Origin: an uncultured Lachnospiraceae bacterium
GTDB lineage: Bacteria; Bacillota; Clostridia; Lachnospirales; Lachnospiraceae
Length of the DNA stretch: 64,000 bases
NCBI GenBank assembly: GCA_949949005.1
Contig: CATLHM010000017.1
Location: 1-64,000, forward strand
Direction: 5' to 3'
In this document: positions 23,353 through 44,101 of the stretch, in pieces
Layout of the letters: every line of letters starts with the position of its first letter
Numbering within the stretch: the stretch's first letter is position 1
The notes under the pieces: model-generated
Databases searched by the model: none
What the model saw: only the letters and a program-made list of their open reading frames with translations
What the model was told of the DNA's origin: nothing
Made by a program: the position numbers and the translations under genes

Positions 23353-23709
23353 TTATTTCTTCATCTTGGGGTTAAAGACAAGGCTGGCCAGATACCCGAA
23401 GATCAGTGCCGCCGAGGTCCCAACGGCTCCTGCCTTAAAGCCGCCGGAAAACACCCCCATAAAGCCCTCCTGGTCTACGGCCTCCTTTACTCCCTTCATC
23501 AACACATTGCCAAAGCCCAGAAGCGGAACCGACGCCCCGGCCCCTGCAAACTCCACAAAGGGCTGATACCATCCAAACGCACTGAGCGCCGCTCCGGCAC
23601 AGACCAAAAGCACCATGATCCGTCCGGGCATCATTTTCGTCTTTTCCATCAGGATCTGTACCAGGGCACAGATCAGCCCTCCTACCCAAAACGCATTAAA
23701 ATAATCCAT
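23353..23709 (-). CDS. spoVAE: Stage V sporulation protein AE
   Basis: Small membrane protein (118 aa) of the SpoVA channel that moves dipicolinic acid into the forespore and releases it on germination. Start ATG at 23709 follows AAGGAGG. Family features: AFWVGGLICALVQILME, AALSAFGWYQPFVEFAGAGASVP, FGNVLMKG, GGFKAGAVGTSAALIFGYLAS. In Bacillus and Clostridium it sits directly after spoVAD; here it stands alone between GH31 and peptidase genes with its own sigma-G-like promoter (23756-23785). Confidence 0.93.
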   Translation of the reverse strand: MDYFNAFWVGGLICALVQILMEKTKMMPGRIMVLLVCAGAALSAFGWYQPFVEFAGAGASVPLLGFGNVLMKGVKEAVDQEGFMGVFSGGFKAGAVGTSAALIFGYLASLVFNPKMKK

Positions 23710-23755
23710 GATAACCTCCTTGCCGCTTAAATTTGCGCAACTCGTTTTCATGGAT

Positions 23756-23785
23756 TATTATTTGCCTTTTTTTACATTGATATAC
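23756..23785 (-). promoter_or_regulatory. Sigma-G/F-type promoter of spoVAE
   Basis: On the minus strand GTATA (-35, fits GHATR), an 18-bp spacer and AATAATA (-10, one mismatch to CATWNTA). It is 47 bp upstream of the spoVAE start codon. Confidence 0.6.
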
Positions 23786-23787
23786 CA

Positions 23788-26208
23788 CTAAAATTTCCGG
23801 ACGATTTCTATCTTTCCATAAGGCCGATAGCCCTCATGCAGGATTTTGACCTCTGCCTCCCCGTCCTGATTGGAAATCTCATATTCGTTAAAAGCACCCT
23901 GACGGTACTGGAAATCTTCTCCGTTGTCCTGGTAATGGGTGTAAACTCCCTCCCCCGGATAGGCCTCCAGGATCAGCAGATCGTCTTTATCCTCTCCCAC
24001 ACAAAGGCGCGCCGGATATTTGGGAATCACGGCTCCTGCCTTCACATAAACCGGGCACACATCCAAAGGCGCCTCTTTTACGAAGAAGCTCCTGCCCTCT
24101 TTCCGCTCTCCCGTCCAATAATCATACCAGATGCCCTGGGGAAGATAAACCATCCTTTCCCTTGCGCCCTGCTCCACCACCGGCGCAATCAGCATCCGGT
24201 CGCCTAACATAAACTCGTCGTTTCGGTTCCTTACATTTTCATCCTCCTCATATTCCATCACCAGAGGACGCACCATGGGGATTCCCGTAACCTCTGTCTC
24301 ATGCATCAGGTCATATAAATAAGGAAGAAGTTCATAGCGCAGATTGATGTATTTCCTGCTGATGGAAAGAACCTCCTTTCCAAACTGCCAGGGCTCCTGG
24401 GGCCTTCCGCCCAGGGCGCAGTGATCCCTGAAAAAGGGCATAAAGCATCCGGCCTGAATCCATCTGGCAAACAGCTCCGGCGTGGCGTCGCTTCCAAAGC
24501 CTCCCACATCAGCCCCCACAAAGTTCATGCCTGACATGCCGAGGTTACAGATCTGGGGAATCATCATGCGGATATGGGACCAGATGCTGTGATTGTCCCC
24601 GGTCCATGCGGTGGTATATTTCTGGGAACCGCTGTAACAGGCTCTTGTGATCACAAAGGGCCTTTTCCCGGAATATTCTTTCCACCCCTCATAGGTGGCC
24701 TTGGCCATATTGTGGCCGTAAATATTATGGATCTGAGAGTGGGGTGCCTGCCTGTCCTCATCGGTGAACACCACATCATCCGGCAAAGGCCCCCGGAAGC
24801 TTGCGGGCTCGTTCATGTCATTCCACACGCCTCCAACCCCCAGATCAATGAGATATTTCTGTTTCCCGGCCCACCAGGTGCGCACCCTGGGATCGCCGAA
24901 ATCAGGAAATACCGCGTCCCCGGGCCAGACGGCGTTTACATAGGCCTCTCTGCTGTCAGGCTTTTTGGCAAAATATCCCTTCTCCATCCCTTCCTCATAT
25001 ACATAGTAGTCCTTCTCCACCTTCACCCCCGGATCAATGATGGTGACGGCCTTGATTCCCATTTCCTTCAAATCGGAAATAACCTTCCGCTCATCCTGAT
25101 AGGTTTCCTGATTCCATGTAAAGACCTTGTAATGATCCATATAATCAATGTCAAAGTGAATACAGTCGCAGGGCAGGTCATTCTCCCGCAGGCCCTTTGC
25201 CACTTCCCGGATCTTTTCCTCTGACTCATAGCCCCATCTGGACTGATGGTAGCCCAGCGTCCAGAGCTGCTGCATGGGAGCGCGCCCGGTAAGCCAGGTA
25301 TAATCCGAAACCACCTCTTTCAGGCTTTCCCCGGCCATAAAATAGTAGTCCAGATTTCCCTCTTCCGCTCCAAACACGTAATAGTCTTCGCTTTCCTTTC
25401 CCAGGTCAAAGAAGGATTTACAGTGATTGTCAAAGAAAATGCCGTAGGCCCCTTTTTCCTTCAGGACAAGCATAAAGGGAATGCTCTTATAAAGGGACTT
25501 GAAATTATCTTCATGAGGATCCGGAATATCCGAATTCCACATCACATACTCGTAATGCCTCTTGTTCAAAAAGCCTGTCTTGTCGCCCAGACCGTAAATA
25601 CAATCCGTCTTATCCAGGCTTCTTAACTCCTGCACCTGATTTCCCTTTGCCTTCCCATCCGATGCGGCATGTCCTTCCTCTGCCAGCAACATCAATTCTT
25701 TCCAGCCGAGGCCGCTTTTTTCTTTTCTCTCTCCCCGCCAGGCCAGACTTAAGGGGTTGCCCTCACAGTCATAAAAATCCACCGCGAAACCGTCATTGAC
25801 CTTCACAGTCACTTTCTTGCTGCGGATTACCACCGCAGAGCCTTCCCATGACACCCAATCCGCTTTTCCCGCAGCTTCCCTGTTTGCTGGGCTTTCTGCG
25901 TTTTCTCTACTTTCTACGCTTTCTGTACTTTCTGCCTTTTCGGCTCCCTCCGGCCCGTTCTCCCGGCCTTCCCCAAGGGCCTGACATTCCTGACAGGTAT
26001 CGGCGTTCAGCCTCTTCCCAAGCTCTCCTTCGATGGCCCTGGTTCTGTGTCCCAGACCGTCATAGTCAACAAACACGTTAAAAATCGTATCAGAAATCAC
26101 CTCCACGCTGGGACGCAGATTCTCCTGCCCTCCCTCGAACTCAAAGGTGACCTTCCGCCCCTCCAGACGATAATCCTTCAGCTTTCCAAACAAAATATTC
26201 TGAGTCAA
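23788..26208 (-). CDS. Glycoside hydrolase family 31 (alpha-glucosidase type)
   Basis: Cytoplasmic exo-alpha-glycosidase of 806 aa. The TTG at 26208 is chosen because AGGAGGAG precedes it at good distance and no ATG lies near. Catalytic nucleophile D464 in GVWNDMNEP and acid/base D538 in TGDNHS; DCIHFDIDYMDHYKVF and FVGADVGGF are further GH31 motifs. An N-terminal beta-sandwich comes first (galactose-mutarotase-like), then the barrel, then C-terminal beta domains. Odd: residues about 70-110 in the N-terminal domain carry a hydrophilic insertion rich in Glu, Ser and Asn, part of it encoded by 18-bp DNA repeats (25892-25945). Likely specificity alpha-glucosides or alpha-xylosides; not decidable here. 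Confidence 0.94.
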   Translation of the reverse strand: MTQNILFGKLKDYRLEGRKVTFEFEGGQENLRPSVEVISDTIFNVFVDYDGLGHRTRAIEGELGKRLNADTCQECQALGEGRENGPEGAEKAESTESVESRENAESPANREAAGKADWVSWEGSAVVIRSKKVTVKVNDGFAVDFYDCEGNPLSLAWRGERKEKSGLGWKELMLLAEEGHAASDGKAKGNQVQELRSLDKTDCIYGLGDKTGFLNKRHYEYVMWNSDIPDPHEDNFKSLYKSIPFMLVLKEKGAYGIFFDNHCKSFFDLGKESEDYYVFGAEEGNLDYYFMAGESLKEVVSDYTWLTGRAPMQQLWTLGYHQSRWGYESEEKIREVAKGLRENDLPCDCIHFDIDYMDHYKVFTWNQETYQDERKVISDLKEMGIKAVTIIDPGVKVEKDYYVYEEGMEKGYFAKKPDSREAYVNAVWPGDAVFPDFGDPRVRTWWAGKQKYLIDLGVGGVWNDMNEPASFRGPLPDDVVFTDEDRQAPHSQIHNIYGHNMAKATYEGWKEYSGKRPFVITRACYSGSQKYTTAWTGDNHSIWSHIRMMIPQICNLGMSGMNFVGADVGGFGSDATPELFARWIQAGCFMPFFRDHCALGGRPQEPWQFGKEVLSISRKYINLRYELLPYLYDLMHETEVTGIPMVRPLVMEYEEDENVRNRNDEFMLGDRMLIAPVVEQGARERMVYLPQGIWYDYWTGERKEGRSFFVKEAPLDVCPVYVKAGAVIPKYPARLCVGEDKDDLLILEAYPGEGVYTHYQDNGEDFQYRQGAFNEYEISNQDGEAEVKILHEGYRPYGKIEIVRKF
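25892..25945 (-). repeat. 18-bp tandem repeat inside the GH31 gene
   Basis: Three 18-bp units, themselves built of 9-bp half units (CTTTCTRCG/CTTTCTGTA), encode the hexapeptides EKAES-type: AEKAES, TESVES, RENAES. In frame with the gene. Confidence 0.75.
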
Positions 26209-26327
26209 AATGCTCCTCCTCTCTTGCCCCTGAAACTCATTTTTTTACATTATATTATCCGTAAGGGAATTTTTCTTCCCTCTGCTTGACCATTTATTAC
26301 ACTATTTTGACTCTATCTTGCCTCACT

Positions 26328-26366
26328 GTCTTAACTTACGGTTTTAACTTGCTGTTTTAACTTTCA
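26328..26366. repeat. 13-bp tandem repeat at the end of the EamA gene
   Basis: Three 13-bp units (GTCTTAACTTACG, GTTTTAACTTGCT, GTTTTAACTTTCA) span the stop codon of the EamA transporter gene and the sequence after it. Confidence 0.6.
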
Positions 26367-27358
26367 GGCGCTTTTTCTGCCGAATCTTTTTTGCCGCCGG
26401 GAAGCTGCACCAGGATCACAGCCCCAAACACCAGAGCGCAGCCCATAAGCTCTTTTGCGCTCAGGGCCTGCCCCAAAATCAGCCAGCCTGCCAGCACGGA
26501 AAACACCGACTCCATGGAAAGCAAAAGGGAGGCAACCGCGGGATCCGTATCTCTCTGGCCGATCACCTGCAGGGTATAGGCCACACCGCTTGACATAATT
26601 CCCGCATAGGCAAGGGGAATAATTCCCTCCCCAAGGGCGGAAAGATTAGGCTTTTCAAAGGCCAGGGCCAAAACGCTGCTGATGACTCCCGCAGTCAAAA
26701 ACTGAATACAGGATAATTCCACTCCGTCCGCCTTTGGGGAAAAATAATCAATCACCAGAATATGTACGGTAAACAAAAGGGCGCTTATAAACACCAGCCC
26801 GTCCCCTCTGCTCAGGGAAAATCCCTCATTGACACAGAGCAGGTAAAACCCCAGGGCCGCAATGCCGGCTCCGATCCACACCTTGCCGGAAGGCGCCCTT
26901 TTCATAAAAATTCCCGCAATAGGTACAAGGATGATGTAAAGAGTTGTAATAAAGCCCGCTTTCCCAACTGTGGTATACAGAATACCGAACTGCTGAAACA
27001 AGGCGGCGCAGCACAGCGCCAGCCCACAGCAAAAACCGCCCACAAAAACGGTCTTTTTATTGTCTTTTCCCCCCGGGAACGCTTCCTGGGAAGCCCCCCT
27101 GTCCTGGCAGCCGTCCTGCGTCCCACAATCGTTCTGCGCCCCACGGACGCTCTGTATGGGGCCGCCGTTCTGCACCGGGCCGGCACAGCGATATACCCTT
27201 TTCCTGCGAAAGAGAATCACCGGGACAAGTACCGCGCTTCCCATCAGAAATCTTGCACCGTTGAAGGTGAAGGGCCCCATATAATCCATGCCCACGCTCT
27301 GCGCCACAAAGGCCACGCCCCAGATCAGCGCCGCCAAAAGTAAGAGTAATTTTTTCAT
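26357..27358 (-). CDS. EamA/DMT-family transporter
   Basis: Inner-membrane transporter of the drug/metabolite superfamily, 333 aa from the ATG at 27358, which overlaps the aroK stop as ATGA. Ten hydrophobic helices in two EamA repeats (ALIWGVAFVAQSVGMDYMGP at the N-terminus, SGVAYTLQVIGQRDTDPAVASLLLSMESVFSVLAGW in the second). Between helices 2 and 3 (residues about 55-100) is a hydrophilic loop made of hexapeptide repeats (GPVQN-type) encoded by four 18-bp DNA units, far longer than normal in this family. Substrate unknown; metabolite or amino-acid export is typical. Confidence 0.88.
   Translation of the reverse strand: MKKLLLLLAALIWGVAFVAQSVGMDYMGPFTFNGARFLMGSAVLVPVILFRRKRVYRCAGPVQNGGPIQSVRGAQNDCGTQDGCQDRGASQEAFPGGKDNKKTVFVGGFCCGLALCCAALFQQFGILYTTVGKAGFITTLYIILVPIAGIFMKRAPSGKVWIGAGIAALGFYLLCVNEGFSLSRGDGLVFISALLFTVHILVIDYFSPKADGVELSCIQFLTAGVISSVLALAFEKPNLSALGEGIIPLAYAGIMSSGVAYTLQVIGQRDTDPAVASLLLSMESVFSVLAGWLILGQALSAKELMGCALVFGAVILVQLPGGKKDSAEKAPES
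27113..27184 (-). repeat. 18-bp tandem repeat inside the EamA transporter gene
   Basis: Four diverged 18-bp units at 27113, 27131, 27149 and 27167, each beginning GTYCTGCR or GCTCTGTA on the plus strand, with a partial unit before them. They encode the loop repeats AGPVQN, GGPIQS, VRGAQN and DCGTQD. Confidence 0.8.
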
Positions 27359-27846
27359 AAGTATCCCGCAATTTCCTCCACAATACTCCGGATGTCCCTG
27401 CCGCCGCAATCCACCCTCAGATCCGCATATTTTTCGTAGAGTACTATCCTTTCTTCGTATAAATCCTTAAGGGTACTCCCCTCTCTTAGCACCACGCCCC
27501 GCTCGTGGAGGTCGCCAAGCCGCTCTTTCAGCTCCTCATAGGGCAGCCTTAGATAAACGATTCTGCCAATTTCCCGGAAATGATCCATAGCCTCTTTTCC
27601 ATAGACCGCGCTTCCCCCGGTGGCGATCACCATCCGCTCGCCCCAAATATCCCTGTTTATTTCGTTTTCAAGCATAAGAAAACCTGCTTCACCCCTCTCT
27701 TCTATGAGCTGGTAAAGCAGTTTTCCGCATTTTTCCTGAATCACCAGGTCGGAGTCCAGAAACCGGTATCCCAGCCTCTTGGCAAGCACCACACCCACCG
27801 TGCTCTTCCCCGCCCCTGGCATTCCGATCAATATCACATTACTCAT
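27355..27846 (-). CDS. aroK: Shikimate kinase
   Basis: Phosphorylates shikimate at the 3-OH with ATP in aromatic amino-acid synthesis. 163 aa, normal length. Walker A GMPGAGKSTVG near residues 8-18, the shikimate-binding FLDSD, the IATGGSAVYG motif that contacts substrate, and a lid Arg region. Its ATG overlaps the ridA stop (ATGA) and its own stop overlaps the EamA start, so ridA, aroK and the transporter are translationally coupled. No other aro gene is nearby. Confidence 0.93.
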   Translation of the reverse strand: MSNVILIGMPGAGKSTVGVVLAKRLGYRFLDSDLVIQEKCGKLLYQLIEERGEAGFLMLENEINRDIWGERMVIATGGSAVYGKEAMDHFREIGRIVYLRLPYEELKERLGDLHERGVVLREGSTLKDLYEERIVLYEKYADLRVDCGGRDIRSIVEEIAGYL

Positions 27847-28217
27847 ACCACCGCGATGACCTCAACCTCGCACAGCACACCCTTGGGAAGCTCCTTAACC
27901 GCAACGCAGCTCCTGGCCGGTTTGCCTGTAAAATATTTCTCATAAACGCCGTTGAATGCCGCGAAATCAGCCATGTCCGCCAAAAAGCAGGTAGTCTTGA
28001 CCACATTTTCAAATTCCGTTCCTGCCGCTTTTAACACTTCTCCCACATTCTTCATCACCTGCTGTGCCTGCACCGTGATATCTCCCTGGGCAATCTCCCC
28101 GGTTTCAGGTACAATGGGAATCTGCCCTGATGCAAACAGAAAATTATTTGCAATAATCCCCTGGGAATAAGGCCCTATGGCCGCCGGCGCTTTTTCGGTA
28201 GCTACTTTTGTCAACAT
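27843..28217 (-). CDS. ridA: RidA-family enamine/imine deaminase
   Basis: Hydrolyses reactive 2-aminoacrylate and related imines formed by PLP enzymes. 124 aa, typical. Signature elements: AIGPYSQGI near residue 13, FASGQIPI, TTCFLADMADF, and the key Arg in KPARSCVAV followed by LPKGVLCEVEVIAV with the conserved Glu. ATG at 28217 follows GGAGG. First gene of the ridA-aroK-EamA operon. Confidence 0.93.
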   Translation of the reverse strand: MLTKVATEKAPAAIGPYSQGIIANNFLFASGQIPIVPETGEIAQGDITVQAQQVMKNVGEVLKAAGTEFENVVKTTCFLADMADFAAFNGVYEKYFTGKPARSCVAVKELPKGVLCEVEVIAVV

Positions 28218-28404
28218 CTCTCATCCTCCATTTTTTCCTTTTTTGTTCCTCATAGAGTAGCCGTCCGGGTTTGGCCGGGCGGCGCAAATTGCCGGTTGGA
28301 AGTAAACTTACATACGCCGCTGGCGCGGCGCACCACCAAGGCATGAAAGCCGATTGCTCCGCACGACCTGCTCCCGCAATCGCCGCCTGTATTCGTATTC
28401 CGGG

Positions 28405-28647
28405 CTACTCCTCAAATTCTGCGGTTACATAAAATCCCCTCTCGTTTTCAATAATGCTCACCACTGTGCCGCTTCTGGCAAGCATCCTCTCCCGGAAAGG
28501 GATATTTCCCGACATGGCAAGGGATGGGTCAATGGTATAATAGTAATTGCTGGGAAGCACTCCCTCCGTCACCGTGATCTCGTCCCCCTCCTTCAGAAGG
28601 CCGGGACGCTCCATCTTAAACTCCATCTGCCGCATCTCTATAACCAT
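28405..28647 (-). CDS. Conserved small protein of unknown function (80 aa)
   Basis: I do not recognise a named family. The 80-residue product is mostly beta-type sequence (GDEITVTEGVLPSNYYYTIDP, GTVVSIIENERGFYVTAEFEE), like a small beta-barrel or SH3-like fold, with no membrane helix. An AAAGGAG lies one base before the first ATG and 13 before a second (MRQME), so the true start is uncertain. It lies between the ridA operon and spoVAB on the same strand, 68 bp downstream of spoVAB, and may be transcribed with the spoVAA-AB unit. Confidence 0.7.
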   Translation of the reverse strand: MVIEMRQMEFKMERPGLLKEGDEITVTEGVLPSNYYYTIDPSLAMSGNIPFRERMLARSGTVVSIIENERGFYVTAEFEE

Positions 28648-28715
28648 ACTCCTTTCAAAATCTGATGGAACTCTTATCTATTGTAATCGGATTAGGGGGA
28701 TATTTCAATACCCAT

Positions 28716-29225
28716 TCAAAATCCCGACCTGTAAATCCCCTCGGCAAAATAAATCAGGCTTCCCAAAAGCTTCCCAAAAGCAGCGGCGGCAATGGCCACT
28801 CCCAATCCATGTCGGAAGCCGATCCTACGTGCAAAGATCGGAATGGAATTGAGCATTTCCGCGATGGCAAGGGCCAGGCATCCCACAAACATTCCTGCAA
28901 AAATTCCCCAAAGAATTAACAGACCGCTCCCTATCCATTTCCAGATGAGCACCGTATTCTCCCCAAAAGGTTGTCTGGACAAAATCCAGCCACCCAGATG
29001 GCCGTACCGGGAAAACACGCTCAAAAATCCCCCGAACAAGGTACCGAAGACCACCGCCTCCTCTAACACGAATACCTTTTTCGCCACATGCATTTTACCT
29101 GCAAACCTGGGAATCAGCCCAACGGAAACCAGCACAGTAAAGACCCCCGCCGATGCCAAAAGACCAAAGCTCAGCCCGCACATTCCCAGGAAAAGCTGTT
29201 TTACAAGCTCTGCTTTCTCAAACAT
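28716..29225 (-). CDS. spoVAB: Stage V sporulation protein AB
   Basis: Membrane protein (169 aa) of the SpoVA dipicolinate transport system. About four to five helices. Family-defining stretches: GVFTVLVSVGLIPRF near the N-terminus, GIFAGMFVGCLALAIAEMLN, IPIFARRIGFRHG, and FGKLLGSLIYF at the end. It overlaps spoVAA by 8 bp, the same order as in the classical spoVA operon, but spoVAC does not follow. The third helix region carries a longer loop (SRYGHLGGW...) than in Bacillus. Confidence 0.92.
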   Translation of the reverse strand: MFEKAELVKQLFLGMCGLSFGLLASAGVFTVLVSVGLIPRFAGKMHVAKKVFVLEEAVVFGTLFGGFLSVFSRYGHLGGWILSRQPFGENTVLIWKWIGSGLLILWGIFAGMFVGCLALAIAEMLNSIPIFARRIGFRHGLGVAIAAAAFGKLLGSLIYFAEGIYRSGF

Positions 29226-29844
29226 CTATGGTTTTTCCCTCCCTGTCCGCCGTCTCAATCAAGGCCTTATTCACATCCGTCTCGTACACTCTCATTTCCA
29301 CCTCGATCGGCGTGGGATCCTTGGTAATGCGCCTGCCTCCGATATGGTTAAAAAACAAGATAATGCCCGCGGCAAGGCCTATGGAATAGGAAACCTCCAG
29401 AATGCTGTAGCCATCCGAGGGATACCCCATCACCAGCTCATAAACATGGGAAAATATTTTGTTGATACTGATGTCATTATGAAATGCCATGATCGTAAAG
29501 CCTGTTCCGAAGAAACTCACTGCCGCCACGAATGTCAGTTTCAGCCATTGAAGAAATCCTTTGTGTCGGTTCACATTGACCAATTCGATCAATACAGCAT
29601 TTTCTCCAAGGCTCTCCACCTGGACTCCCTGACACTCCTTTTCGATCAGCTCGATCACCTTCAGGATACTGACCACCTGGCGTTTTCTGTCTTTTTCGCC
29701 GAATTTATATACCGTCAAAGACTCTGCCTTTGCGCAGACCGTCTTATCGGAACAATAAACGGAGGCGATATCCTTCACGCATACGCGCTCCTGCATCACC
29801 TCCGCATTCTGTTCCGCTTTCAAATAGATAACCGTACTCGCCAT
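29218..29844 (-). CDS. spoVAA: Stage V sporulation protein AA
   Basis: 208 aa. The ATG at 29844 is preferred because it gives the normal family N-terminus (STVIYLKAEQ); an upstream TTG (29910) would add 22 odd residues. The soluble N-terminal domain (1-about 95) is followed by two helices. Hallmarks: GFTIMAFHNDISI, YSILEVSYSIGLAAGIILFFNHI, and PTPIEVEM at the C-terminus. Expressed in the forespore, judged by the sigma-G/F-type promoter at 29921-29949. Needed with AB for stable assembly or function of the SpoVA channel. Confidence 0.94.
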   Translation of the reverse strand: MASTVIYLKAEQNAEVMQERVCVKDIASVYCSDKTVCAKAESLTVYKFGEKDRKRQVVSILKVIELIEKECQGVQVESLGENAVLIELVNVNRHKGFLQWLKLTFVAAVSFFGTGFTIMAFHNDISINKIFSHVYELVMGYPSDGYSILEVSYSIGLAAGIILFFNHIGGRRITKDPTPIEVEMRVYETDVNKALIETADREGKTIDV

Positions 29845-29920
29845 ACCAAAGCCATGCCCTTTCCACAGCCTGCCGTCCCTGATGCGCCTGCAGGCATGAA
29901 TTTTATTCAACAGATAAGGT

Positions 29921-29949
29921 TAGTATAGCTTTAAAAGACAGAATTATTC
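29921..29949 (-). promoter_or_regulatory. Sigma-G/F-type promoter of spoVAA-spoVAB
   Basis: On the minus strand GAATA (-35, perfect GHATR), a 17-bp spacer and TATACTA (-10, one mismatch to CATWNTA). It begins just after the stop of the upstream EEP-family gene and is 77 bp before the spoVAA start. Confidence 0.65.
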
Positions 29950-29954
29950 ACTTT

Positions 29955-31034
29955 TTAATCCAATATGAACTGCATCAAAACCGGGTCATGATCTGAAAGC
30001 TCATACCCCCAATCCATGTTCTGATAGTAATTCACCCGCACGTTATCCGACACGATAAACCCGTCCAGGGTAACCGTATAGGTGGTCGCCTCATCGTAGG
30101 GCGTCTCGGCGCTCCGGCAGCTATTATGGGAAATGTCCTCCTTTCCCCTGACTCCGTCAATCGCCATCTGAAATCCTTCCGGCAGGGTTTCCCGCGGAAA
30201 GGGATAGGCCCACTCCGGCGCATTTTCCCCTCCGTCCTCTTTCAGGTTGTGATTAAAATCGCCGCCGCAGATCACATAATTTCCTTTCTTATAATCGGAA
30301 ACCATATCCTCATAGAGCATGGAGAGCTGCGCCTGCCGGATCTCATCGCTTCCTCCGTAAGCGGAAGTGTGTACGTTATAAATACAAAGCTGCTTTCCGT
30401 TCTCCGCCGGAATGCGGGAGATGGAATAGCACCTGTCCAAATCCACCAGCTTACTGAAAGACTCCGATATGGGCAGGCTTCTGCGCATGGTATCCGTAAT
30501 CTCCGCCCGGGAATATGTGACCAGACAACTTTTGTTTGCACCATGAGGCTCCCATGGCGGGAAAAATAAAAAGGGTGAATCATAGTCCTGGGCTATGTCG
30601 TAATAATATCCTTTAATAAACTGGTTGATCAGCTCCAGCTCATCCACATGGTAAGACCGGGTACCGTCCAGATCCACCTCCTGAAGGAGCACAAAGTCAG
30701 GGTTCACGGTACTGACAATATCCCCCATACCGCAGACTGCCGCCATCACGCTCTCCTTATCCTTTCCCCATGAGGATTTGCCTCCGTCCATAAAGAAGCT
30801 GTAATCCTTCTGGTAGGCCCCAAAGCCTATATTATAGGTCATGATAAAATAGGCCCCTCCGGGAACCACCCTGAAATCCTCCTTAAAGGAATTATTCTCC
30901 CCGGTTCTTTTGACTTCAAGAGTCAACTTATCCGGCAGACGGTAGTAGGCCTTAAAGACATAAACCACATAAGCAGCAAAAATTATGAGCACCACTATTA
31001 AAATAAATACAATTCTTTTTAATGCTTTTTTCAC
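29955..31034 (-). CDS. Endonuclease/exonuclease/phosphatase (EEP) family protein, membrane-anchored
   Basis: 359 aa from the GTG at 31034, chosen because AGGAG lies ten bases upstream and the product then starts with a clean membrane anchor (KRIVFILIVVLIIFAAYVVYVF). The EEP fold follows: Asn in MTYNIGFG, catalytic Glu in VLLQEVD, CIYNVHTSAYGG, GGDFNHN, and the final SDHDPVLM His/Asp pair. Such proteins hydrolyse phosphodiesters (nucleic acid, lipids or phosphoinositides); the substrate is unknown. The reading frame stays open a further 140 codons upstream into an Rpn-family remnant, so automatic annotation would probably report a 488-aa fusion. Confidence 0.83.
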   Translation of the reverse strand: MKKALKRIVFILIVVLIIFAAYVVYVFKAYYRLPDKLTLEVKRTGENNSFKEDFRVVPGGAYFIMTYNIGFGAYQKDYSFFMDGGKSSWGKDKESVMAAVCGMGDIVSTVNPDFVLLQEVDLDGTRSYHVDELELINQFIKGYYYDIAQDYDSPFLFFPPWEPHGANKSCLVTYSRAEITDTMRRSLPISESFSKLVDLDRCYSISRIPAENGKQLCIYNVHTSAYGGSDEIRQAQLSMLYEDMVSDYKKGNYVICGGDFNHNLKEDGGENAPEWAYPFPRETLPEGFQMAIDGVRGKEDISHNSCRSAETPYDEATTYTVTLDGFIVSDNVRVNYYQNMDWGYELSDHDPVLMQFILD

Positions 31035-31454
31035 TGTGATTCTTCTCCTGTCTGGCTCCCTCACCCTGCTCACGCATTCCCGCGTTTCATCCTCCGTGGC
31101 TCCGATCTTGATACACAGACTCTCCATCACCGATACAATAACATCCAAAATTACCTCTGGCGTATCCCTCACCATATCATTGAGCTTCTCCCCCGGAAGC
31201 TTCAGGAATTCAGAGATATCCACTGCATCCTGTATCTTGTTAAAAAGCATGATCAGCGATATTTCATCCCCTCTTGCAAGAAGCTCCTCATTGCTGTAAT
31301 CATGAAGCCTCACTACCTCATAAGCAAAATCCGGTATCCAATCCTGAAACAACTTCCTGTGTGAAATTCTGGTCTGAAACCGACGCTCTGCCGTCCACGG
31401 AGCTTTCCCCTCGTAGTACACAATCGGCTCGTAAAGCTGCCGCCCTAAAAAAAA
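31035..31454 (-). pseudogene. Remnant of an Rpn-family (PD-(D/E)XK transposase-like) gene
   Basis: In frame with the EEP gene downstream and starting immediately after the TGA of the GH125 gene, the translation reads LYEPIVYYEGKAPW, then FQDWIPDF and GDEISLIMLFNKI. This is the segment following the nuclease domain in Rpn recombination-promoting nuclease family proteins. The nuclease domain and the real start are gone. No stop codon separates it from the EEP gene, so a GTG at 31421 could produce a fusion protein, but the internal ribosome site at 31034 suggests the EEP gene is translated on its own. Confidence 0.6.
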
Positions 31455-35997: not shown

Positions 35998-36037
35998 AAC
36001 CTTTGCTGTACCTTTCCTGTTCTCTCAGTCTCTCCGG

Positions 36038-36850: not shown

Positions 36851-36909
36851 ATCGTCCTCTCCTTTCTCCTGAATCATGTTCTCGCAAAATGCCTATTCCT
36901 AAACCATGG

Positions 36910-37974
36910 TTAACCCTTTCTCTCCATCCAAACCCCAAGGCCCGCCGCTGCCAGCGCCCCGCTGAGCTTTCCCCCCAGCAGGGCTCCCAGCATATCCGGC
37001 TCGGTACTGATCACAAATCCCATGTGGGCGGCCAGAAGACTTGCCCCGCTTACCAGAAAAGCGCTGCAGACCACCTTTCCCTTCTTATCCATATTTTTAT
37101 ACAGGGAAAGGGCTGGAATCACGCTGACCAGCCCGATCAACATCCCCATCATGCTCTCCGGCCCCATCCCCAGCCCCTCTCCCAGACGGGCAAAGGGCTT
37201 TGTGAGAATCCGGCGCAGAAATTCTGCGGCAGGTAGGGAGCCCAGCATCACAATTCCGATAGAGGCCACCACCTCCATAGCCTCCTCTATGGGAGCCATC
37301 CCCTTGATTAACCGAAAGCCGCACATAGATTCCACTGCCGCCAGCACAAGGCCAATGGTAATCACCGCCTTGATTCCATCCGCCAGAAGGCAGAAACCCT
37401 TTATCATCTTTTCCGGAATGCACTTAAGCCCCAAAAGAAGAAGCAGGGCAAGCACAAATACCGGAAGATTCTGCCAGATACAGGCCGGAAGGGAAAGCCC
37501 CGAGAGCAGACCGCCCACCGTTAATCCTACCGGCATGGCCGCCAGGCCAAGCATGATCCCTCTGGCAAAAAATCCTCTTTCCTCCTTCTTCATCATTCCC
37601 ATGCCTACGGGAATGGTAAACACAAGGGTACAGCCGAAAATCGCCGAAACCACCAGCCCTGCGTAGCTTCCCATCCCGGCATCCGCGGCAAGCGCCTTTG
37701 CAAGCTGATAACCTCCCATGTCGATGGCAAGCAGGCTTCCGAACATGGCCGGGTCTACGCCTATGGCCCGGTAAAGGGGAACGACCACCTTTCCCAGCAC
37801 ATCCGCCAGCACAGGGGCCAGGCAGATCATCCCCGCCATGGACAGGGCCGTAGGGCCTAAGAACAGGAAGCCCTCCTCGAATTTTTCCCCGTATCCGTGC
37901 CTATTTCCCCTGATCCTGTCAATCCCCCCGACTACCGCTCCCACTGCCATCACAAGCATGATGATCTGGTTCAT
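36910..37974 (-). CDS. eutH: EutH-like ethanolamine transporter
   Basis: Membrane protein of 354 aa with about ten helices. ATG at 37974 follows GGAGG. Family sequence: GGIDRIRGNRHGYGEKFEEGF, FLGPTALSMAGMICLAPVL, AIDMGGYQLAKALA, ILTKPFARLGEGLGMG and the C-terminal SGASLLAAHMGFVIS. EutH helps ethanolamine enter the cell when it is protonated. No other eut gene (ammonia lyase, microcompartment shell) is in the window, so this is a stand-alone copy, and another amine substrate is possible. Confidence 0.87.
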   Translation of the reverse strand: MNQIIMLVMAVGAVVGGIDRIRGNRHGYGEKFEEGFLFLGPTALSMAGMICLAPVLADVLGKVVVPLYRAIGVDPAMFGSLLAIDMGGYQLAKALAADAGMGSYAGLVVSAIFGCTLVFTIPVGMGMMKKEERGFFARGIMLGLAAMPVGLTVGGLLSGLSLPACIWQNLPVFVLALLLLLGLKCIPEKMIKGFCLLADGIKAVITIGLVLAAVESMCGFRLIKGMAPIEEAMEVVASIGIVMLGSLPAAEFLRRILTKPFARLGEGLGMGPESMMGMLIGLVSVIPALSLYKNMDKKGKVVCSAFLVSGASLLAAHMGFVISTEPDMLGALLGGKLSGALAAAGLGVWMERKG

Positions 37975-38081
37975 TTTAACCTCCATGCCGCGTTTTTTTG
38001 CGGCAACGCGATGCGAAATCCGCGTAGGCGTTTTCGCGTCTGCGATCCAATTTGGGCCGCTTGCGGCACAAATTCCCTGTC

Positions 38082-38101
38082 AAAAAGACCGCAGGTCTTT
38101 T
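38082..38101 (-). terminator. Terminator of the short Xaa-Pro peptidase gene
   Basis: AAAAGACC-TGC-GGTCTTTTTG on the minus strand: 8-bp perfect arms, 3-nt loop, touching the stop codon of the gene at 38101. Confidence 0.75.
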
Positions 38102-39375
38102 CACAACGATATCCCCGGCGCAAAACCCTTTTGCATGGTTTCCTCAACCTCTTCGATGGTTCTGGGAGTAATGACGGAGAGATTCTCGCACCCATCCTCC
38201 GTCACCAGACAGTTATCCTCCAGCCGAAAGCCGATTCCCCACTCCTGGTGATAAATTCCAATATCCACGCAGAATACCATGCCGGGAGCAATGCTCTCCG
38301 GCATCTCAACCGCATCATGGACATCAAAGCCCACATGATGGGCGCCGCCGTGCCACATATAAGTACCGATCTCATCCGCATTTTTCAGCACTCCCGCGTC
38401 CTTTAACAGTCCGGCATTATAGCGCCTGGCCTCTGCGTCCACCTCTTTCATGAGCATGCCGGGTTTGATGATACCGAACATGTGATTGGAAGTGTTCAAC
38501 GCGCACTGGTAGAGAATCTTTTGTCTTTCACTGAATTTCCCGTTACAGGGCCAGCCCCGGGACACGTCGTTCATCAGATTGTCATACCATGCCCCCACGT
38601 CGTTGAGCACCATATCCCCGTCCATTGCCTGCCCTGTGTAGGCATAATAGTGGATGCAAAAATTATTTTTCCCTGCGGAAATGATTGAGGGAAAGGCCGG
38701 CCCCTGGGGGCCGTACTGTCCCAATATGTAGTCGAAAACTGCCTTGTACTGATACTCATACATCCCCGGCCTGGAAGCCTTCATCATGGAAGTGATGCCG
38801 TCACAGGTGATCTTCTCCGCCTCCCTCATGGCGGCAATCTCGCAGGGCTGCTTCACGGTGCGGAGCCTGCGCACGATGACATTGGCATTCTGGATTTTCA
38901 GATAGGGGTAATCGCTGGCTGCTCTCCTTAACAGGCAATGGGCCGGCTCCTCCCGATCCACGGGCTCCGCCCGGTAAAGATCCAGATACAAATGCCGGTA
39001 ATTTCCCGTCGTGGCCAGCCGGTGAAGCTCCGCCTCAAACTCGCTGACAAAGCCGATCTGCCCGATTCCGGAGAGCTCTGCGGCCTGCTCCGGTTTGATT
39101 CTCTCCCCCGTCCAGCGCTCCTTCATAGCATCAGGGGGCAGTATGTAAACCTTCTCCTCCACCTGCCCTTCCGCGTCCTTCCGGGCAAGGAGCACAAACT
39201 CCTTGCCATCCAGCCCCGTAAGATACAAAAAATTCCGGTTCGTGTAGAAGGGGTAATACTCATCGTTGGTCTTACGCACCTCCGTCCCCGAAAACATCAC
39301 CAGAAGGGAATGCTTTTTCATCTGCTTATAAAACCTTTTTCTGTTCCCCTGAAAAAATTCCTTCGTCATCCTCAC
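38101..39375 (-). CDS. Xaa-Pro aminopeptidase (M24B, PepP type)
   Basis: 424 aa, the PepP-length form: an aminopeptidase P N-terminal domain (FYTNRNFLYLTG, LLARKD) and an M24 catalytic domain. Metal ligands: two Asp in LNDVGAWYDNLMNDVSR, His in GGAHHVGFDVHD, and Glu in FRLEDNCLVTEDG. At the fourth position, where most PepP enzymes read (T/V)IEPGxY, this protein has CVDIGIY, an Asp in place of the Glu ligand. It may still bind metal, but the substitution deserves note. It lies between eutH and spoVAD on the same strand. Confidence 0.9.
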   Translation of the reverse strand: MRMTKEFFQGNRKRFYKQMKKHSLLVMFSGTEVRKTNDEYYPFYTNRNFLYLTGLDGKEFVLLARKDAEGQVEEKVYILPPDAMKERWTGERIKPEQAAELSGIGQIGFVSEFEAELHRLATTGNYRHLYLDLYRAEPVDREEPAHCLLRRAASDYPYLKIQNANVIVRRLRTVKQPCEIAAMREAEKITCDGITSMMKASRPGMYEYQYKAVFDYILGQYGPQGPAFPSIISAGKNNFCIHYYAYTGQAMDGDMVLNDVGAWYDNLMNDVSRGWPCNGKFSERQKILYQCALNTSNHMFGIIKPGMLMKEVDAEARRYNAGLLKDAGVLKNADEIGTYMWHGGAHHVGFDVHDAVEMPESIAPGMVFCVDIGIYHQEWGIGFRLEDNCLVTEDGCENLSVITPRTIEEVEETMQKGFAPGISL

Positions 39376-39409
39376 ACTTCTCCTTTCCCAGCAGGAAATT
39401 TCCTGCTTC

Positions 39410-40459
39410 TTATCGCACGCTCACCAGCTCCACTCCATGGGCGATCCCCGGAATGCTCTGTCCCTCATTAAAGCTGGTCTTGGAAAGAAGGGCTCCCGTC
39501 GGCACAAACAGCACCCTCTTCCACTTTCCCTCCTCCAACTGTTTCAGCACATAAGCGGAAAGAACCACGGCGCTGCAACCACAGCCGCTGCCTCCCGCAT
39601 GGGCGTCCTGGCTCTGATCGTATATCTCCATTCCACAGTCCATATGCACCTTGGAGATATCCATTCCCATCTCCCGCATCATATCCCAAAGGGCCTTCTG
39701 GCCCACGCTTCCCAGATCCCCGGTGATGATTTTATCGTAATCCGAAGGCTTCCTGTCAAAGTCCGACAAATGCTCATAAATCGTATCGGCAGCGGCAGGC
39801 GCCATACAGGCCCCCATATTCATGGAGTCCTTCAGGCCAAAATCCACGATCTTTCCTATGGTAATTCCGTCAATCAGGGCCCTGTCCTTACTGCTCTTTG
39901 TACTGCTCAAAATAAAAGCGCCGCTCCCCGTTACCGTCCAGGTAGCGGAAAGAGGTCTCTGGTTCCCATAGCCCAGGGGAAAACGGAATTCCTTCTCCGC
40001 ACTGGCAAAATGGCTGGAGGTAACGCAGGCCGCATTCTCCGCCATTCCCCCTGCGATCATCATTGCCGCCATGGACAGGGTCAGCCCGCAGGTAGAACAG
40101 GCCCCATACATACCGACCAGGGGAATATGAAAGGAACTGAGGCCAAAGCTGCTGGCAATAGACTGCCCCAGCAGATCCCCGGCAAACAGATACTTGATGT
40201 CCTTACTTTTCAGCCCGGACTTTCCGATGGCAAGCAAGAGCGCTTCCTTTTGCAGAGTGCTCTCCGCCTCCTCCCAGGTATTGCATCCGAACTTATCATC
40301 CATTCCCACCGCATCAAAGCTATCCCCAAAGGGGCCTTCCCCCTCCTTGGTTCCCACCACCGATGCGCTCGTCCTTATATATACAGGCACCGGCACCTTA
40401 ATACTCCGGTTTCCCTGCTCAAAAATTGCTCCCACTGTTTTTTCCATATAAATGACCAT
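39410..40459 (-). CDS. spoVAD: Stage V sporulation protein AD
   Basis: Thiolase-fold protein (349 aa from 40459, or 345 from the ATG at 40447) that binds dipicolinic acid for uptake into the forespore. Hallmarks: GPFGDSFD, YLFAGDLLGQS, GMYGACSTCGLTLSMAA, HFASAEKEFRFPLGYGNQRP, ATWTVTGSGAFILS. It resembles FabH/thiolase enzymes but lacks a working condensing-enzyme triad and serves as a binding protein. It is normally between spoVAC and spoVAE; here those genes are 3 kb and 16 kb away. Start uncertain: GGAAAGGG is 2 bp before one ATG and 14 before the other. Confidence 0.94.
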   Translation of the reverse strand: MVIYMEKTVGAIFEQGNRSIKVPVPVYIRTSASVVGTKEGEGPFGDSFDAVGMDDKFGCNTWEEAESTLQKEALLLAIGKSGLKSKDIKYLFAGDLLGQSIASSFGLSSFHIPLVGMYGACSTCGLTLSMAAMMIAGGMAENAACVTSSHFASAEKEFRFPLGYGNQRPLSATWTVTGSGAFILSSTKSSKDRALIDGITIGKIVDFGLKDSMNMGACMAPAAADTIYEHLSDFDRKPSDYDKIITGDLGSVGQKALWDMMREMGMDISKVHMDCGMEIYDQSQDAHAGGSGCGCSAVVLSAYVLKQLEEGKWKRVLFVPTGALLSKTSFNEGQSIPGIAHGVELVSVR

Positions 40460-40494
40460 GCCCTTTCCGTAACCTGCAAACTTTGGGCCGCAGG

Positions 40495-40529
40495 CACAAA
40501 TTTGTGTGTGAAAAATTTATTTTTCACAC
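40495..40529. repeat. Palindromes in the spoVAD leader
   Basis: A perfect 12-bp palindrome CACAAATTTGTG (40495-40506) abuts an 11-bp-arm hairpin GTGTGAAAAAT/ATTTTTCACAC (40506-40529). They lie between the SGNH gene's stop and the spoVAD start, and could end the upstream transcript or fold in the spoVAD leader. Confidence 0.6.
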
Positions 40530-40552
40530 TAACCTCCAGATGATTTTTGGAT

Positions 40553-40581
40553 TAGTCTCTCTCATCCGAAAATTTTTATTC
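40553..40581 (-). promoter_or_regulatory. Weak sigma-G/F-type promoter candidate of spoVAD
   Basis: On the minus strand GAATA (-35, perfect), a 17-bp spacer and GAGACTA (two mismatches to CATWNTA), ending next to the stop of the upstream gene. Weaker than the other three spoVA promoters; named mainly because spacing and position agree. Confidence 0.35.
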
Positions 40582-40582
40582 A

Positions 40583-41986
40583 TCATTCCTGTTCCATGGC
40601 AACTCCGTGAGAGAGCAAAAACTGCTTCCACAGGTCGTTGTACTTTCCCAGAAGATGAAGCTGGTCATAGGTATACTCCGAATTTAAATTTCCCTCCTCA
40701 TCGCAAACCACTTCGTTTACATCAATATAAAAAAAACATTCATTGTCTGCCAGGGTTGCTATGGCATTATTTCGCGCATTAATATTGTCATTGTTGAATA
40801 TGGGATCCGAATGGTGTTTCTTTCCGGTCACCCGCATGATTCCCTGGATAAAGATTTTCGCCTCCGGCTCCTTCTCATGGAGAAAATCAACCACCTCCGT
40901 ATAATGATCCATAAAATCTTCCGTGGTTCCCACCCCAAGCTCATTGATCCCCGACATAATATAAATCTTGCCGTAATCCTTATTTTCCAGGGCCTTTTCA
41001 ATGGTTCCCAGGCCATGGAAATCCTCCTTAAGTATCTTCTGGATGGTCAGGGAGGTCTCGCAATAAAAATCCGCGTGCTCCGACAAATCCGTATAATCCC
41101 GAAGGCCTACCGTCCTGGAATCCCCGATAAAGAGGGCGTCGTCAAAATAGCTCTCATCCACCTGGGAAAAACCATACTCTGCCGCCCGTTTCACGCCCGC
41201 GTCGCCATAAATATCCGCCGAAATATGATTGAGATACTCCTCCCGGGTACTTTCCCGCAAAGGCTTGATCCGTCCGTTGGGAAGCTCCCTCTCCTGCAAA
41301 TCCTTTCCCTCCGGCGGCTTTGACCCTTCCTCCGCATCTTCCTCGGCCGGCTTCGTATCCTCCTCATCCTCCCGGCCACCGCTGTCAGAAACTGTTCCCT
41401 GGCTGGCCCCGCTTTCCTGATCCTCCTTGTTTCCCTGATCTTTCCCGTTTCCCGAGCCTTCCTCCTTTTCCTGGGCTGATGTCCCATTCCTGCCTGTATC
41501 GGCCTCCTTGGCCTCTTCCGCCGGATCCGGGCCGTGTCCATCTTTTACCTCCGATTCCGGACTCCCTGCGCCATCATCCGCCTCCTGGGCCGGGCCCTGG
41601 CTGTTCTTGCCCTCATCCCCCGGCTCCCCACTTTCGGCGGCCTTATCTGTCTCCTGGGCCTTGTCAGGGAGTTCTTCTGTCGCTTTCTCATCCCCCTGTC
41701 CATCGGCAACAGCCCCGCTTTCAGCTGTATCATTTTGCTGGCCAGCGTCCTCTTTCGAGGCCATCACTGCAGCGCTTTCCTCCTCAAACATCTGCCAGGG
41801 GTAGATATCGTCCTTAAATCCCTTAAACATCATCACCGAAGCCGGTTCCTTAAGGGGGGCATATTCCTGGCCGGAATAGATATTCTTCCGTCCGCATAAG
41901 CCAATCAAAGAAAAAAGAATTCCCGTACTCACCAAAAGCAGCAAAAACGGACTTTTCTGAATGAACCTTTTCACTTTCGCTCTCAT
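40583..41986 (-). CDS. Membrane-anchored SGNH-fold hydrolase with acidic linker
   Basis: 467 aa. One N-terminal helix (residues about 12-30, PFLLLLVSTGILFSLIGL) anchors it outside the membrane. Residues about 75-225 are a disordered linker rich in Glu, Asp, Gly, Ser and Lys. The C-terminal domain is SGNH-like: FIGDSRTVGL (nucleophile Ser), SGINELG (Gly/Asn), and DQLHLLG (Asp-His). It starts 63 bp after the MBOAT gene and should be its partner in O-acylation of an extracellular polymer, like PatB, DltD or AlgX. The acyl acceptor could be an exopolysaccharide or peptidoglycan. Confidence 0.83.
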   Translation of the reverse strand: MRAKVKRFIQKSPFLLLLVSTGILFSLIGLCGRKNIYSGQEYAPLKEPASVMMFKGFKDDIYPWQMFEEESAAVMASKEDAGQQNDTAESGAVADGQGDEKATEELPDKAQETDKAAESGEPGDEGKNSQGPAQEADDGAGSPESEVKDGHGPDPAEEAKEADTGRNGTSAQEKEEGSGNGKDQGNKEDQESGASQGTVSDSGGREDEEDTKPAEEDAEEGSKPPEGKDLQERELPNGRIKPLRESTREEYLNHISADIYGDAGVKRAAEYGFSQVDESYFDDALFIGDSRTVGLRDYTDLSEHADFYCETSLTIQKILKEDFHGLGTIEKALENKDYGKIYIMSGINELGVGTTEDFMDHYTEVVDFLHEKEPEAKIFIQGIMRVTGKKHHSDPIFNNDNINARNNAIATLADNECFFYIDVNEVVCDEEGNLNSEYTYDQLHLLGKYNDLWKQFLLSHGVAMEQE

Positions 41987-42049
41987 CGAAACACCTTTTA
42001 CCTATGTAAAAATTTCTTTCTGTTGTATCGTGAATTTTCCCATTCCATT

Positions 42050-43426
42050 TTAAAATTTCAGATACATAAACGGATTTCCCGCGCTGACGGACTGGGAATA
42101 AACCGCCATCCAGAAAACCAATACCAGCAAAAGCATCACCAGAGGATGATCCTTGTGCCTTTTCCAGAAACGCGTCATAGCCGGAATACAAAGACTGATG
42201 CCCGCGATAAAATAAATACTGTAGTCTCTCAAATATTTAATAATATCCCTCTGGTTTACTGCAATGCCCTCTCCCCCAAACCAAGGGAAGAGCCTTCCGA
42301 AATAGATTACCAGTTGCTGCAAATCCGTCACGGCAAAAATCACCCATGTAAGGGGTATCAACACCAGTACATACACATTGCCAAGCAAAGGTATCTTCTG
42401 TAAAAGTTTGCCATACACCAGCTTTTCCAGAATAATGACCAGCCCAATCACGCTGCCCCAGACCAGATAATTGAAGCCGTTCCCGTGCCAGATTCCCGTC
42501 AGGAGCCACACCAGGGCCAGATTGAGAACCAGCCTCTTTTTGTCGCACCGGCTTCCCCCAAGAGGTATGTAGACATACTCCCGAAACCACCTTCCCAGCG
42601 TCACGTGCCACCTTCTGTAAAACTCGGAAATACTTTTTGACGCATAAGGGTCGTTAAAATTCATGATAAAGGGATAGCCCAGCATCACCATCAGCCCTGA
42701 CGCCATCAGGGAATAGCCCCAGAAATCAAAATACAACTGCAGGGAATAGCCCGCGGCCCCCAGCCACGCCAGGGGCGTGGAGATACTCTGAAAGCCGATC
42801 ATCTGCAAATCGTTCCAGAGGATTGCCAGCTTGTCCGCCAGAAGCACTTTCATGCCAAGCCCTGCCACGAAGCACTTAAGGCCGTCCTCGAAGCCTTCCA
42901 GGCTGCACCCCTTTCCGCTGCCAAAGCCGCCCTGCGCATATCCCATAATAGGCCCGGATTCCACCTGGGGAAACAGGGTAAAATAAAGCGCGGCCTGCTT
43001 CCATCCGGGTTTTTCCGGCACCTTCTGCCGGTACAAATCCATCTGATAGGAAATCATCTTAAATATGTAAAAACTCAGGCCCATGGGCAAAAGGGCGTTG
43101 TCCACGAACACCGCCAGACATTTAAAAACCCCAAGGATCCCCACATCCGCTCCCACAGCCAGCAGCAAAAAGGTTTTCCGCCTTCTGACCTGCCGCCCGT
43201 AAATACAGGGCACGTTCCCCGGCTTCCAGAGCTTCTCCCCCAGATAGTAGTTCAGGGCCGTTGCCACAACGAGCACAAGCACAAAAAGAGGCTCCCCCAG
43301 AGCATAAAAAATAAGGCTCTCCAGAAGCAGAATACTCTCTCTGTGTTTGGCTGGCGTTATAAAATATATGATGAGAAAAACCGGCAGTAGCCGGAATAAA
43401 AATTCCAATCCGGAAAAGCTGACCAT
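42050..43426 (-). CDS. MBOAT-family O-acyltransferase
   Basis: Integral membrane acyltransferase of the AlgI/DltB type, 458 aa, with about ten helices. ATG at 43426 follows AGGGGAA; longer upstream frames lack a ribosome site. Motifs: SEFYRRWHVTLGRWFREYVYIPLGGSR and the active-site His in LTGIWHGNGFNYLVWG. It passes acyl (usually acetyl) groups across the membrane to the neighbouring SGNH protein. The pair sits between spoVAD and spoVAC; whether it acts on vegetative polymer or spore coat/cortex is not known. Confidence 0.93.
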   Translation of the reverse strand: MVSFSGLEFLFRLLPVFLIIYFITPAKHRESILLLESLIFYALGEPLFVLVLVVATALNYYLGEKLWKPGNVPCIYGRQVRRRKTFLLLAVGADVGILGVFKCLAVFVDNALLPMGLSFYIFKMISYQMDLYRQKVPEKPGWKQAALYFTLFPQVESGPIMGYAQGGFGSGKGCSLEGFEDGLKCFVAGLGMKVLLADKLAILWNDLQMIGFQSISTPLAWLGAAGYSLQLYFDFWGYSLMASGLMVMLGYPFIMNFNDPYASKSISEFYRRWHVTLGRWFREYVYIPLGGSRCDKKRLVLNLALVWLLTGIWHGNGFNYLVWGSVIGLVIILEKLVYGKLLQKIPLLGNVYVLVLIPLTWVIFAVTDLQQLVIYFGRLFPWFGGEGIAVNQRDIIKYLRDYSIYFIAGISLCIPAMTRFWKRHKDHPLVMLLLVLVFWMAVYSQSVSAGNPFMYLKF

Positions 43427-43448
43427 AACGTTCCCCTGCTCTCTGCAA

Positions 43449-43474
43449 CCTGTACACACCTTGGCGTGCTTCCT
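43449..43474 (-). repeat. Dispersed leader element, copy 2
   Basis: Counterpart of the element at 13126-13154, in the leader of the MBOAT gene. The 5' half AGGAAGCACGCCAA is identical. The 3' arm differs but can still pair with the 5' arm through G-U pairs. Confidence 0.4.
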
Positions 43475-43513
43475 CTTATTGTACCATCCCTGTTTTAAAT
43501 CTACAAGAATGAC

Positions 43514-43542
43514 GCATAATTTTTTTCTTTCCACGCATACTA
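43514..43542 (+). promoter_or_regulatory. Sigma-G/F-type promoter of spoVAC
   Basis: GCATA (43514-43518, perfect GHATR), a 17-bp spacer and CATACTA (43536-43542, perfect CATWNTA). 80 bp before the spoVAC start. The best forespore promoter in the window. Confidence 0.75.
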
Positions 43543-43621
43543 TCGGAAACATCGTTACAGTTCACGGCCTAACCGGCCGTGTATAGCAAACAAATTTGCC
43601 CAAGGAGCTAAGAGCGAGAAT

Positions 43622-44101
43622 ATGAACGAACAAAAAAGTCAGGAACAACTCGACCTGGAAAAAGATTATGAAGAGTATGTAAAGAAAATAACCCCAACCC
43701 ACAACCTTTATCTGCAGATGCTAAAGGCTTTCATCACGGGCGGCATTATCTGTACCGTTGGCCAGGCGCTTCTCACCTTTGCAAAAGACAGGCTTGGCAT
43801 GGACAAGGACATGGCAGGAAGCTTCTGCTCCCTGATCCTTGTGCTGATCAGCGTCCTTCTCACAGGCTTCAACCTCTATTCTTCCATCGTCAAGTTTGGC
43901 GGCGCCGGCGCTTTGGTGCCCATTACAGGCTTTGCCAATTCCGTGGCGGCTCCCGCCGTGGAATTCAAAAAAGAAGGGCAGGTATTCGGGATCGGCTGCA
44001 AAATCTTCACCATCGCCGGGCCGGTGATTTTGTACGGCATCTTTACAAGCTGGGTGCTGGGGCTGGCTTACTGGCTCGGAAAGATGGCGGGCATTGTCTG
44101 A
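43622..44101 (+). CDS. spoVAC: Stage V sporulation protein AC
   Basis: Membrane protein (159 aa) of the SpoVA channel. In Bacillus, SpoVAC behaves as a mechanosensitive channel that releases dipicolinate during germination. Family pattern: an N-terminal soluble stretch (YEEYVKKITPTHNLY), then FITGGIICTVGQALLTF, LLTGFNLYSSIVKFGGAGALVPITGFANSVAAPAVEFKKEG and a C-terminal helix. It is the only spoVA gene on the plus strand here, separated from spoVAD by the acylation pair. AAGGAG lies 14 bp before the ATG, a long spacing. Confidence 0.94.
   Translation: MNEQKSQEQLDLEKDYEEYVKKITPTHNLYLQMLKAFITGGIICTVGQALLTFAKDRLGMDKDMAGSFCSLILVLISVLLTGFNLYSSIVKFGGAGALVPITGFANSVAAPAVEFKKEGQVFGIGCKIFTIAGPVILYGIFTSWVLGLAYWLGKMAGIV

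Follow-up and report, generated by a model that had tools for sequence, protein, structure and literature searches.

Probable repeated break-up of the spoVA operon in Lachnospiraceae and sigma-G-like sites at its detached genes

We analyzed a 64,000-nucleotide stretch of DNA (the window) from an uncultured Lachnospiraceae bacterium (assembly GCA_949949005.1, contig CATLHM010000017.1, positions 1 to 64,000), in which the five spoVA sporulation genes are distributed over 20.7 kb in four units (spoVAE; spoVAA-AB; spoVAD; spoVAC), with spoVAC inverted. This scatter is not peculiar to the window's genome; it recurs in the Lachnospiraceae, and separation of a gene from its operon partners is associated with a sigma-G-like site upstream of it. 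We consider it probable that the scattered units represent one dipicolinic acid (DPA) channel locus that was repeatedly broken, its detached genes regaining sigma-G-type promoters.

The spoVA genes of the window

The initial annotation described intact spoVA genes in four units with spoVAC inverted, and both the coordinates and the Pfam and NCBIfam families bear this out; the Pfam scores of the proteins are all above their cut-offs. spoVAE, which encodes the channel subunit SpoVAEb, stands alone (23353..23709, minus strand; PF03862, 129 bits). spoVAB (28716..29225, minus strand; PF13782, 104 bits) is paired with spoVAA (29218..29844, minus strand; PF12164, 88 bits), for which alignment within the genus gives a start at ATG 29844. 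spoVAD, encoding the predicted plug subunit (39410..40459, minus strand; PF07451, 464 bits), scores above the cut-off of NF006160 and just below the curated cut-off of TIGR02845; its original start is, from alignment, probably ATG 40447. spoVAC, encoding another channel subunit, is also alone (43622..44101, plus strand; PF03862, 148 bits). The paralogous membrane pair SpoVAC/SpoVAEb is present, with PF03862 found twice and different best NCBIfam matches, TIGR02838 for SpoVAC (155.5 bits, cut-off 164) and TIGR02839 for SpoVAEb (128.5 bits, cut-off 131.1), both slightly below cut-off. SpoVAA and SpoVAB, an accessory pair that is not universal, are present as well.

These are the same AA, AB, AC, AD and AEb genes that make up the operon of Bacillus subtilis and the intact operons of Lachnospiraceae. 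In the window, the sole contiguous pair on one strand is AA-AB, and 14 genes intervene between the units, fewer than the roughly 20 first estimated. A second, intact spoVA operon was sought and none was found: the window's own genome (59% complete, 41 contigs) holds two PF03862 genes in total and one SpoVAD, and each of 23 other same-genus genomes holds exactly two PF03862 genes.

Gene order in the genus and the family

The closest named records belong to Parablautia muri, Parablautia intestinalis, and Lachnospiraceae metagenome-assembled genomes (among the best 80 of 547). At the genus level (SpoVAD identity of at least 74%) we compared 36 loci, some of which stop short of spoVAA or spoVAE. 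Whole-genome coordinates show no canonical AB-AC, AC-AD, or AD-AE junction in any of the 24 genomes of the genus (Parablautia-like Lachnospiraceae, window included). Of the 21 other same-genus genomes with AC and AD on a single contig, 20 have the two genes in opposite orientation; in G014 and G023 they are on separate contigs. Where AC is visible (29 of 36 loci, the other seven having it outside the available flank), it lies divergently upstream of AD with an MBOAT gene between them in 28 cases. At the remaining locus (L062, genome G007), AC instead follows AD immediately and in the same orientation, the opposite of the common arrangement and a possible re-joining. The phosphatase-family gene is immediately upstream of AA in 19 of the 20 loci where AA can be seen, and all 12 loci with AE in view share the order AD - AA-AB - 80-amino-acid open reading frame (ORF) - RidA - AE. 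Directly upstream of AE, different genes are found across the genus. Among 44 more distant loci, the 80-amino-acid ORF and RidA are near AD in 36; AE is in the flank of 26, with RidA separating AD from AE in 24.

We then sampled 150 genomes of the family, one per genus, using PF03862, PF07451, PF13782, and TIGR02839. Among the matches listed, all four genes were found in 88 genera (87 sampled plus the window's genome), and a junction was called intact if the genes were on the same strand, in the right order, and less than 400 bp apart. AB-AC-AD-AE is fully intact in 28/88 genera, and at least one junction is broken in 60/88. Single splits are mostly at AC|AD (26 genera; AD|AE 3, AB|AC 2), double splits combine AB|AC with AC|AD (15), AC|AD with AD|AE (6), or AB|AC with AD|AE (1), and all three junctions are split in seven genera. 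For splits across different contigs, at least 500 bp of partner-free flank was available in all except G153 (AB|AC). Among 15 genomes with AC, AD, and AE from other families of the same taxonomic order, the trio is adjacent in 12 (exceptions G031, G032, and G034). The broken operon that the initial annotation proposed is thereby supported.

How often did the operon change? On a quick tree of 103 rows built from four SpoVA proteins, which leaves 33 of its 100 inner branches open, 16 changes are required at AB|AC, 16 at AC|AD, and 8 at AD|AE; independent differing pairs on starred branches number 10, 10, and 5, respectively. Within the window's starred clade of ten rows, every row has AC|AD and AD|AE split and six also have AB|AC split, which suggests that AC|AD and AD|AE parted before AB|AC.

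Sigma-G-like sites at separated genes: gain or retention?

We compared upstream regions of separated and adjacent genes in 102 to 103 genomes, scoring them against the sigma-G consensus of a published B. subtilis table (PMC3416734) and counting a score of at least 11 of 12 as a site. Sites are found at 19/26 separated versus 7/76 adjacent AC genes, 32/54 versus 4/49 AD genes, and 11/20 versus 3/83 AE genes, with 2.8 to 8.7% in shuffled sequence. Pooled, this is 62/100 against 14/208. None of 300 scrambled consensi matched the contrast (maximum difference 16 points, compared with 55 observed). The outcome was the same whether we used the published consensus or the initial one that it replaced, which gave, with the window omitted, 16/25 versus 3/76 for AC, 30/53 versus 1/49 for AD, and 10/19 versus 0/83 for AE.

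The intact operons provide a positive control. sigF, as named by its end motif, is within reach in 27 of 39 intact operons (22 in the family, 5 outside it), and the position just behind it scores at least 11 in 19/27 (9.5% expected), with 11 perfect matches (0.3% expected). All 19 come from the 22 family operons, with none from the five outside. An intact family operon reads sigF, often a small ORF or gap, and AA-AB-AC-AD-AE, and in 19/22 a sigma-G-like site just after sigF heads the whole series. The window differs in having four units, all of them with a separate site, and AC inverted. The linkage to sigF also differs, since the window's spoVA genes are on contig C17 and the best sigF-like match of the genome is on C4.

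The initial annotation held that the parts had kept forespore control. A sigma-G-like site is present at all four units (weak at AD). Genes inside intact operons, however, show sites roughly as often as expected by chance, and detached genes often have one, which points to promoter gain rather than retention. The simplest reading is that detached AC, AD, and AE regained forespore control by gaining promoters. Alternatively, forespore promoters would already have been present within the operon before it broke, and the breaks would have done no more than expose them, so that control was kept. A slight excess of sites at adjacent AC (7/76 versus 5.9% in shuffled sequence) and AD (4/49 versus 2.9%) leans that way, but the pooled within-operon count is near chance and far from that of the separated genes, and we consider this alternative unlikely.

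Sites in the window and its genus

In the window, scores and shuffle P values were obtained with the initial consensus. The candidate site of spoVAC (GCATA-N17-CATACTA; 43514..43542, plus strand) scores 12/12 (P 0.003), that of spoVAE (GTATA-N18-AATAATA; 23756..23785, minus strand) 11/12 (P 0.02), and that of spoVAA-AB (GAATA-N17-TATACTA; 29921..29949, minus strand) 11/12 (P 0.027). With GAATA-N17-GAGACTA (40553..40581, minus strand; 10/12, P 0.33), spoVAD has a weak candidate that is conserved in the genus, while those of AC, AE, and AA are good matches. Under the published consensus (GNATA / CAWAMTA), AC scores 12, AE 11, and AD 10 of 12. An alternative spoVAA start at 29910, from the long ORF, placed sites of at least 11 at 1/20 loci and was replaced by the aligned start.

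Across the genus, the spoVAC site scores at least 11 in 16/29 loci and the spoVAE site in 11/13 sequences; of the two misses, L067 appears to be the AC paralogue. The counts for some upstream sets retain a wrong row: L067 stands among the AE sequences, and L062 among those of AC although its start is displaced. A strict pattern, GHATA-N16..18-NATWMTA, occurs in 21/21 AA, 7/14 AE, 4/30 AC, and 0/37 AD upstream regions (window included), and a looser one, GHATA-N16..18-NANACTA, in 17/21 AA, 18/30 AC, 34/37 AD, and 0/14 AE. The shuffled rate for these patterns is 0.4 to 1.4% (AA strict 0.5%, AD looser 0.4%). As a negative control, 16 neighboring genes of the genus loci gave no score of at least 11 in 121 upstream regions.

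Could the units instead be read through from their neighbors, with the sites incidental? Transcription would then reach AD from the MBOAT-SGNH pair, AE from the GH31 gene, and AA from the phosphatase-family gene. Same-strand upstream gaps are short (78 bp for AE, 110 bp for AA, 123 bp for AD), and the window's AD site is weak. AC, however, diverges from its neighbor, and the sites recur in the genus although the gene upstream of AE changes. Read-through is a rather improbable account of the four units.

Selection on the scattered genes

Comparison within the genus shows purifying selection on all five spoVA genes. The median ratio of nonsynonymous to synonymous substitution rates (dN/dS), taken over pairs with unsaturated dS, is 0.037 for AE (12/13 pairs), 0.041 for AD (31/36), 0.056 for AC (16/29), 0.071 for AA (11/20), and 0.106 for AB (12/19); the highest single value is 0.367, for an AE pair. 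The scattered genes might still be relics of a defunct channel or of lost sporulation, their dispersal a form of neutral decay. A PF03862 match is missing from 46 of the 150 sampled family genomes, some of them incomplete, and in two other genera (G065, contig C61; G124, contig C1) the spoVAB reads carry in-frame stops, possibly decay or frameshift. Nevertheless, frames in the genus are intact, medians are low, and the window's genome keeps a small acid-soluble spore protein (SASP) gene and two spore-sigma-like genes, probably sigF and sigG (TIGR02885, both below cut-off), all of which makes the relic explanation highly improbable. As for an assembly or binning artifact, which an incomplete, fragmented draft might invite, the same gene order in numerous independent assemblies, among them those of isolates, effectively rules it out.

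A model for operon break-up

Our preferred explanation starts from an ancestral family operon that would have had the form sigF, one forespore promoter, a small ORF in some cases, and AA-AB-AC-AD-AE. This operon would have broken repeatedly within the Lachnospiraceae. On the line to the window's genus, AC|AD and AD|AE may have parted first; AC would next have split from AA-AB and been inverted beside the MBOAT-SGNH pair, and AA-AB would have ended up behind another gene. Because the detached genes would have acquired sigma-G-type promoters, the forespore probably continues to produce all subunits jointly, supplied in trans from four promoters. They would then assemble as a C+Eb channel for DPA with D as its plug, in line with the literature (C and Eb as the membrane path, D as plug; PMC13059800). 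In Clostridioides difficile, spoVAC-AD-AE is reported to be in the sigma-G regulon as one three-gene operon (PMC3789822); in the window, this core trio is scattered.

Several observations weigh against this explanation. The promoter sites are predictions from sequence, 38 of 100 separated genes have no site of at least 11, and the window's own AD site reaches 10/12. The window's M24 peptidase gene after spoVAE also scored 11 (P 0.027). A further promoter control, SASP genes of the genus, gave 0/15 at 11 or above, with a weaker nnATA-N17-(A/G)ATACTA site in 6/15. A first control on intact operons, covering 180 bp upstream of AA, reached at least 11 in just 6/39, in part because a small ORF or gap often follows sigF (family only). 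For the five genomes from other families with sigF in view, the stretch between sigF and AA gave a score of 10 each time. Separated upstream regions are richer in AT, for which the shuffles account. Tree-corrected pairs point in the same direction but are weak and few (median p 0.03 for AC, 0.22 for AD, 0.25 for AE). The parsimony counts are blind to break versus re-joining, and the tree was built from the very SpoVA proteins under study. Finally, the sites used by sigma-F overlap with those of sigma-G, and in C. difficile the promoter of spoVAC reportedly resembles a sigma-F site more closely (PMC7438776).

A more far-reaching version can be offered tentatively: some 40 junction changes on the gene tree may have been accompanied by de novo gain of forespore promoters, so that co-transcription would be dispensable and separate promoters would let C/Eb and D be dosed independently. 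This is possible, though we would not yet lean towards it.

An interspersed repeat before spoVAD

In the window, an 88-bp interspersed repeat (40448..40535, minus strand) places a new leader between the old ribosome-binding site and the start codon of spoVAD. It has 15 copies in the window's genome and 23 in G002 (E <= 1e-5), and it is present in 7/24 searched genomes, own included, with 46 matches in total. The copies carry a hairpin, a short ORF, and a new ribosome site (loci L270-L284 and L369-L387). Among 34 inspected copies, 27 are preceded by a Shine-Dalgarno-like stretch (a loose pattern, scored without a control); an ORF start comes next in 32, a test that is uninformative, as 57% of randomly chosen positions pass it too. 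On visual inspection, most copies have a Shine-Dalgarno-like stretch on one side and the start codon of a gene on the other, and these genes are unrelated. From 28 input copies, 27 could be read (L272 had no anchor; L380 was anchored on the downstream gene), and the ORF beginning at GTG (VKNKFFT..KFV...) is open over 25 codons in 23/27, compared with 0 and 1 for the other frames. The repeat has no Rfam match at gathering score. It is perhaps a mobile leader ORF.

Neighboring genes and other features

Five genes lie between AE and AB-AA (GH31, EamA, shikimate kinase, RidA, and the 80-amino-acid ORF), seven between AA and AD (an endonuclease/exonuclease/phosphatase-family gene, GH125, an AAA ATPase, a sugar transferase, an alpha/beta hydrolase, EutH, and an M24 peptidase), and two between AD and AC. 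The latter, an SGNH hydrolase and an MBOAT acyltransferase (40583..43552, minus strand; PF13472 and PF03062), possibly serve O-acylation of a surface or spore polymer. The conserved 80-amino-acid ORF (28405-28647, minus strand) adjoins RidA and has no Pfam or NCBIfam match. The phosphatase-family ORF (29955-31421, minus strand) has a long extra N-terminal part, which we take to resemble a transposase remnant. A lone EutH gene (36910-37986, minus strand) near spoVAD is seen in the available flanks of only 2/36 genus loci. The window also contains short tandem repeats of 14 and 18 bp (23209-23306 and 6081-6206) and no Rfam element at gathering scores. A tRNA-linked rearrangement was rejected, as the window contains no tRNA.

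Implications

Operon break-up and the splitting of gene blocks, e.g., in his operons, are a known kind of evolution. The present case differs in that it involves subunits of one developmental channel, with a matching cell-type promoter site at detached genes. Scattered spoVA genes in Lachnospiraceae were not described in the papers that our literature searches turned up, which does not prove that no such description exists. A search for a contiguous operon would miss the spoVA operon in most sampled Lachnospiraceae genera (60/88). What began as a single odd locus becomes a comparative test of operon dissolution without loss of function, in which dozens of genera make it possible to trace the break points, the promoter sites, and a complex that presumably works, and in which the stoichiometry of the DPA channel becomes directly testable. 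If the more far-reaching version is true, the Lachnospiraceae would be a replicated natural experiment in the break-up of an operon for a multi-subunit developmental channel.

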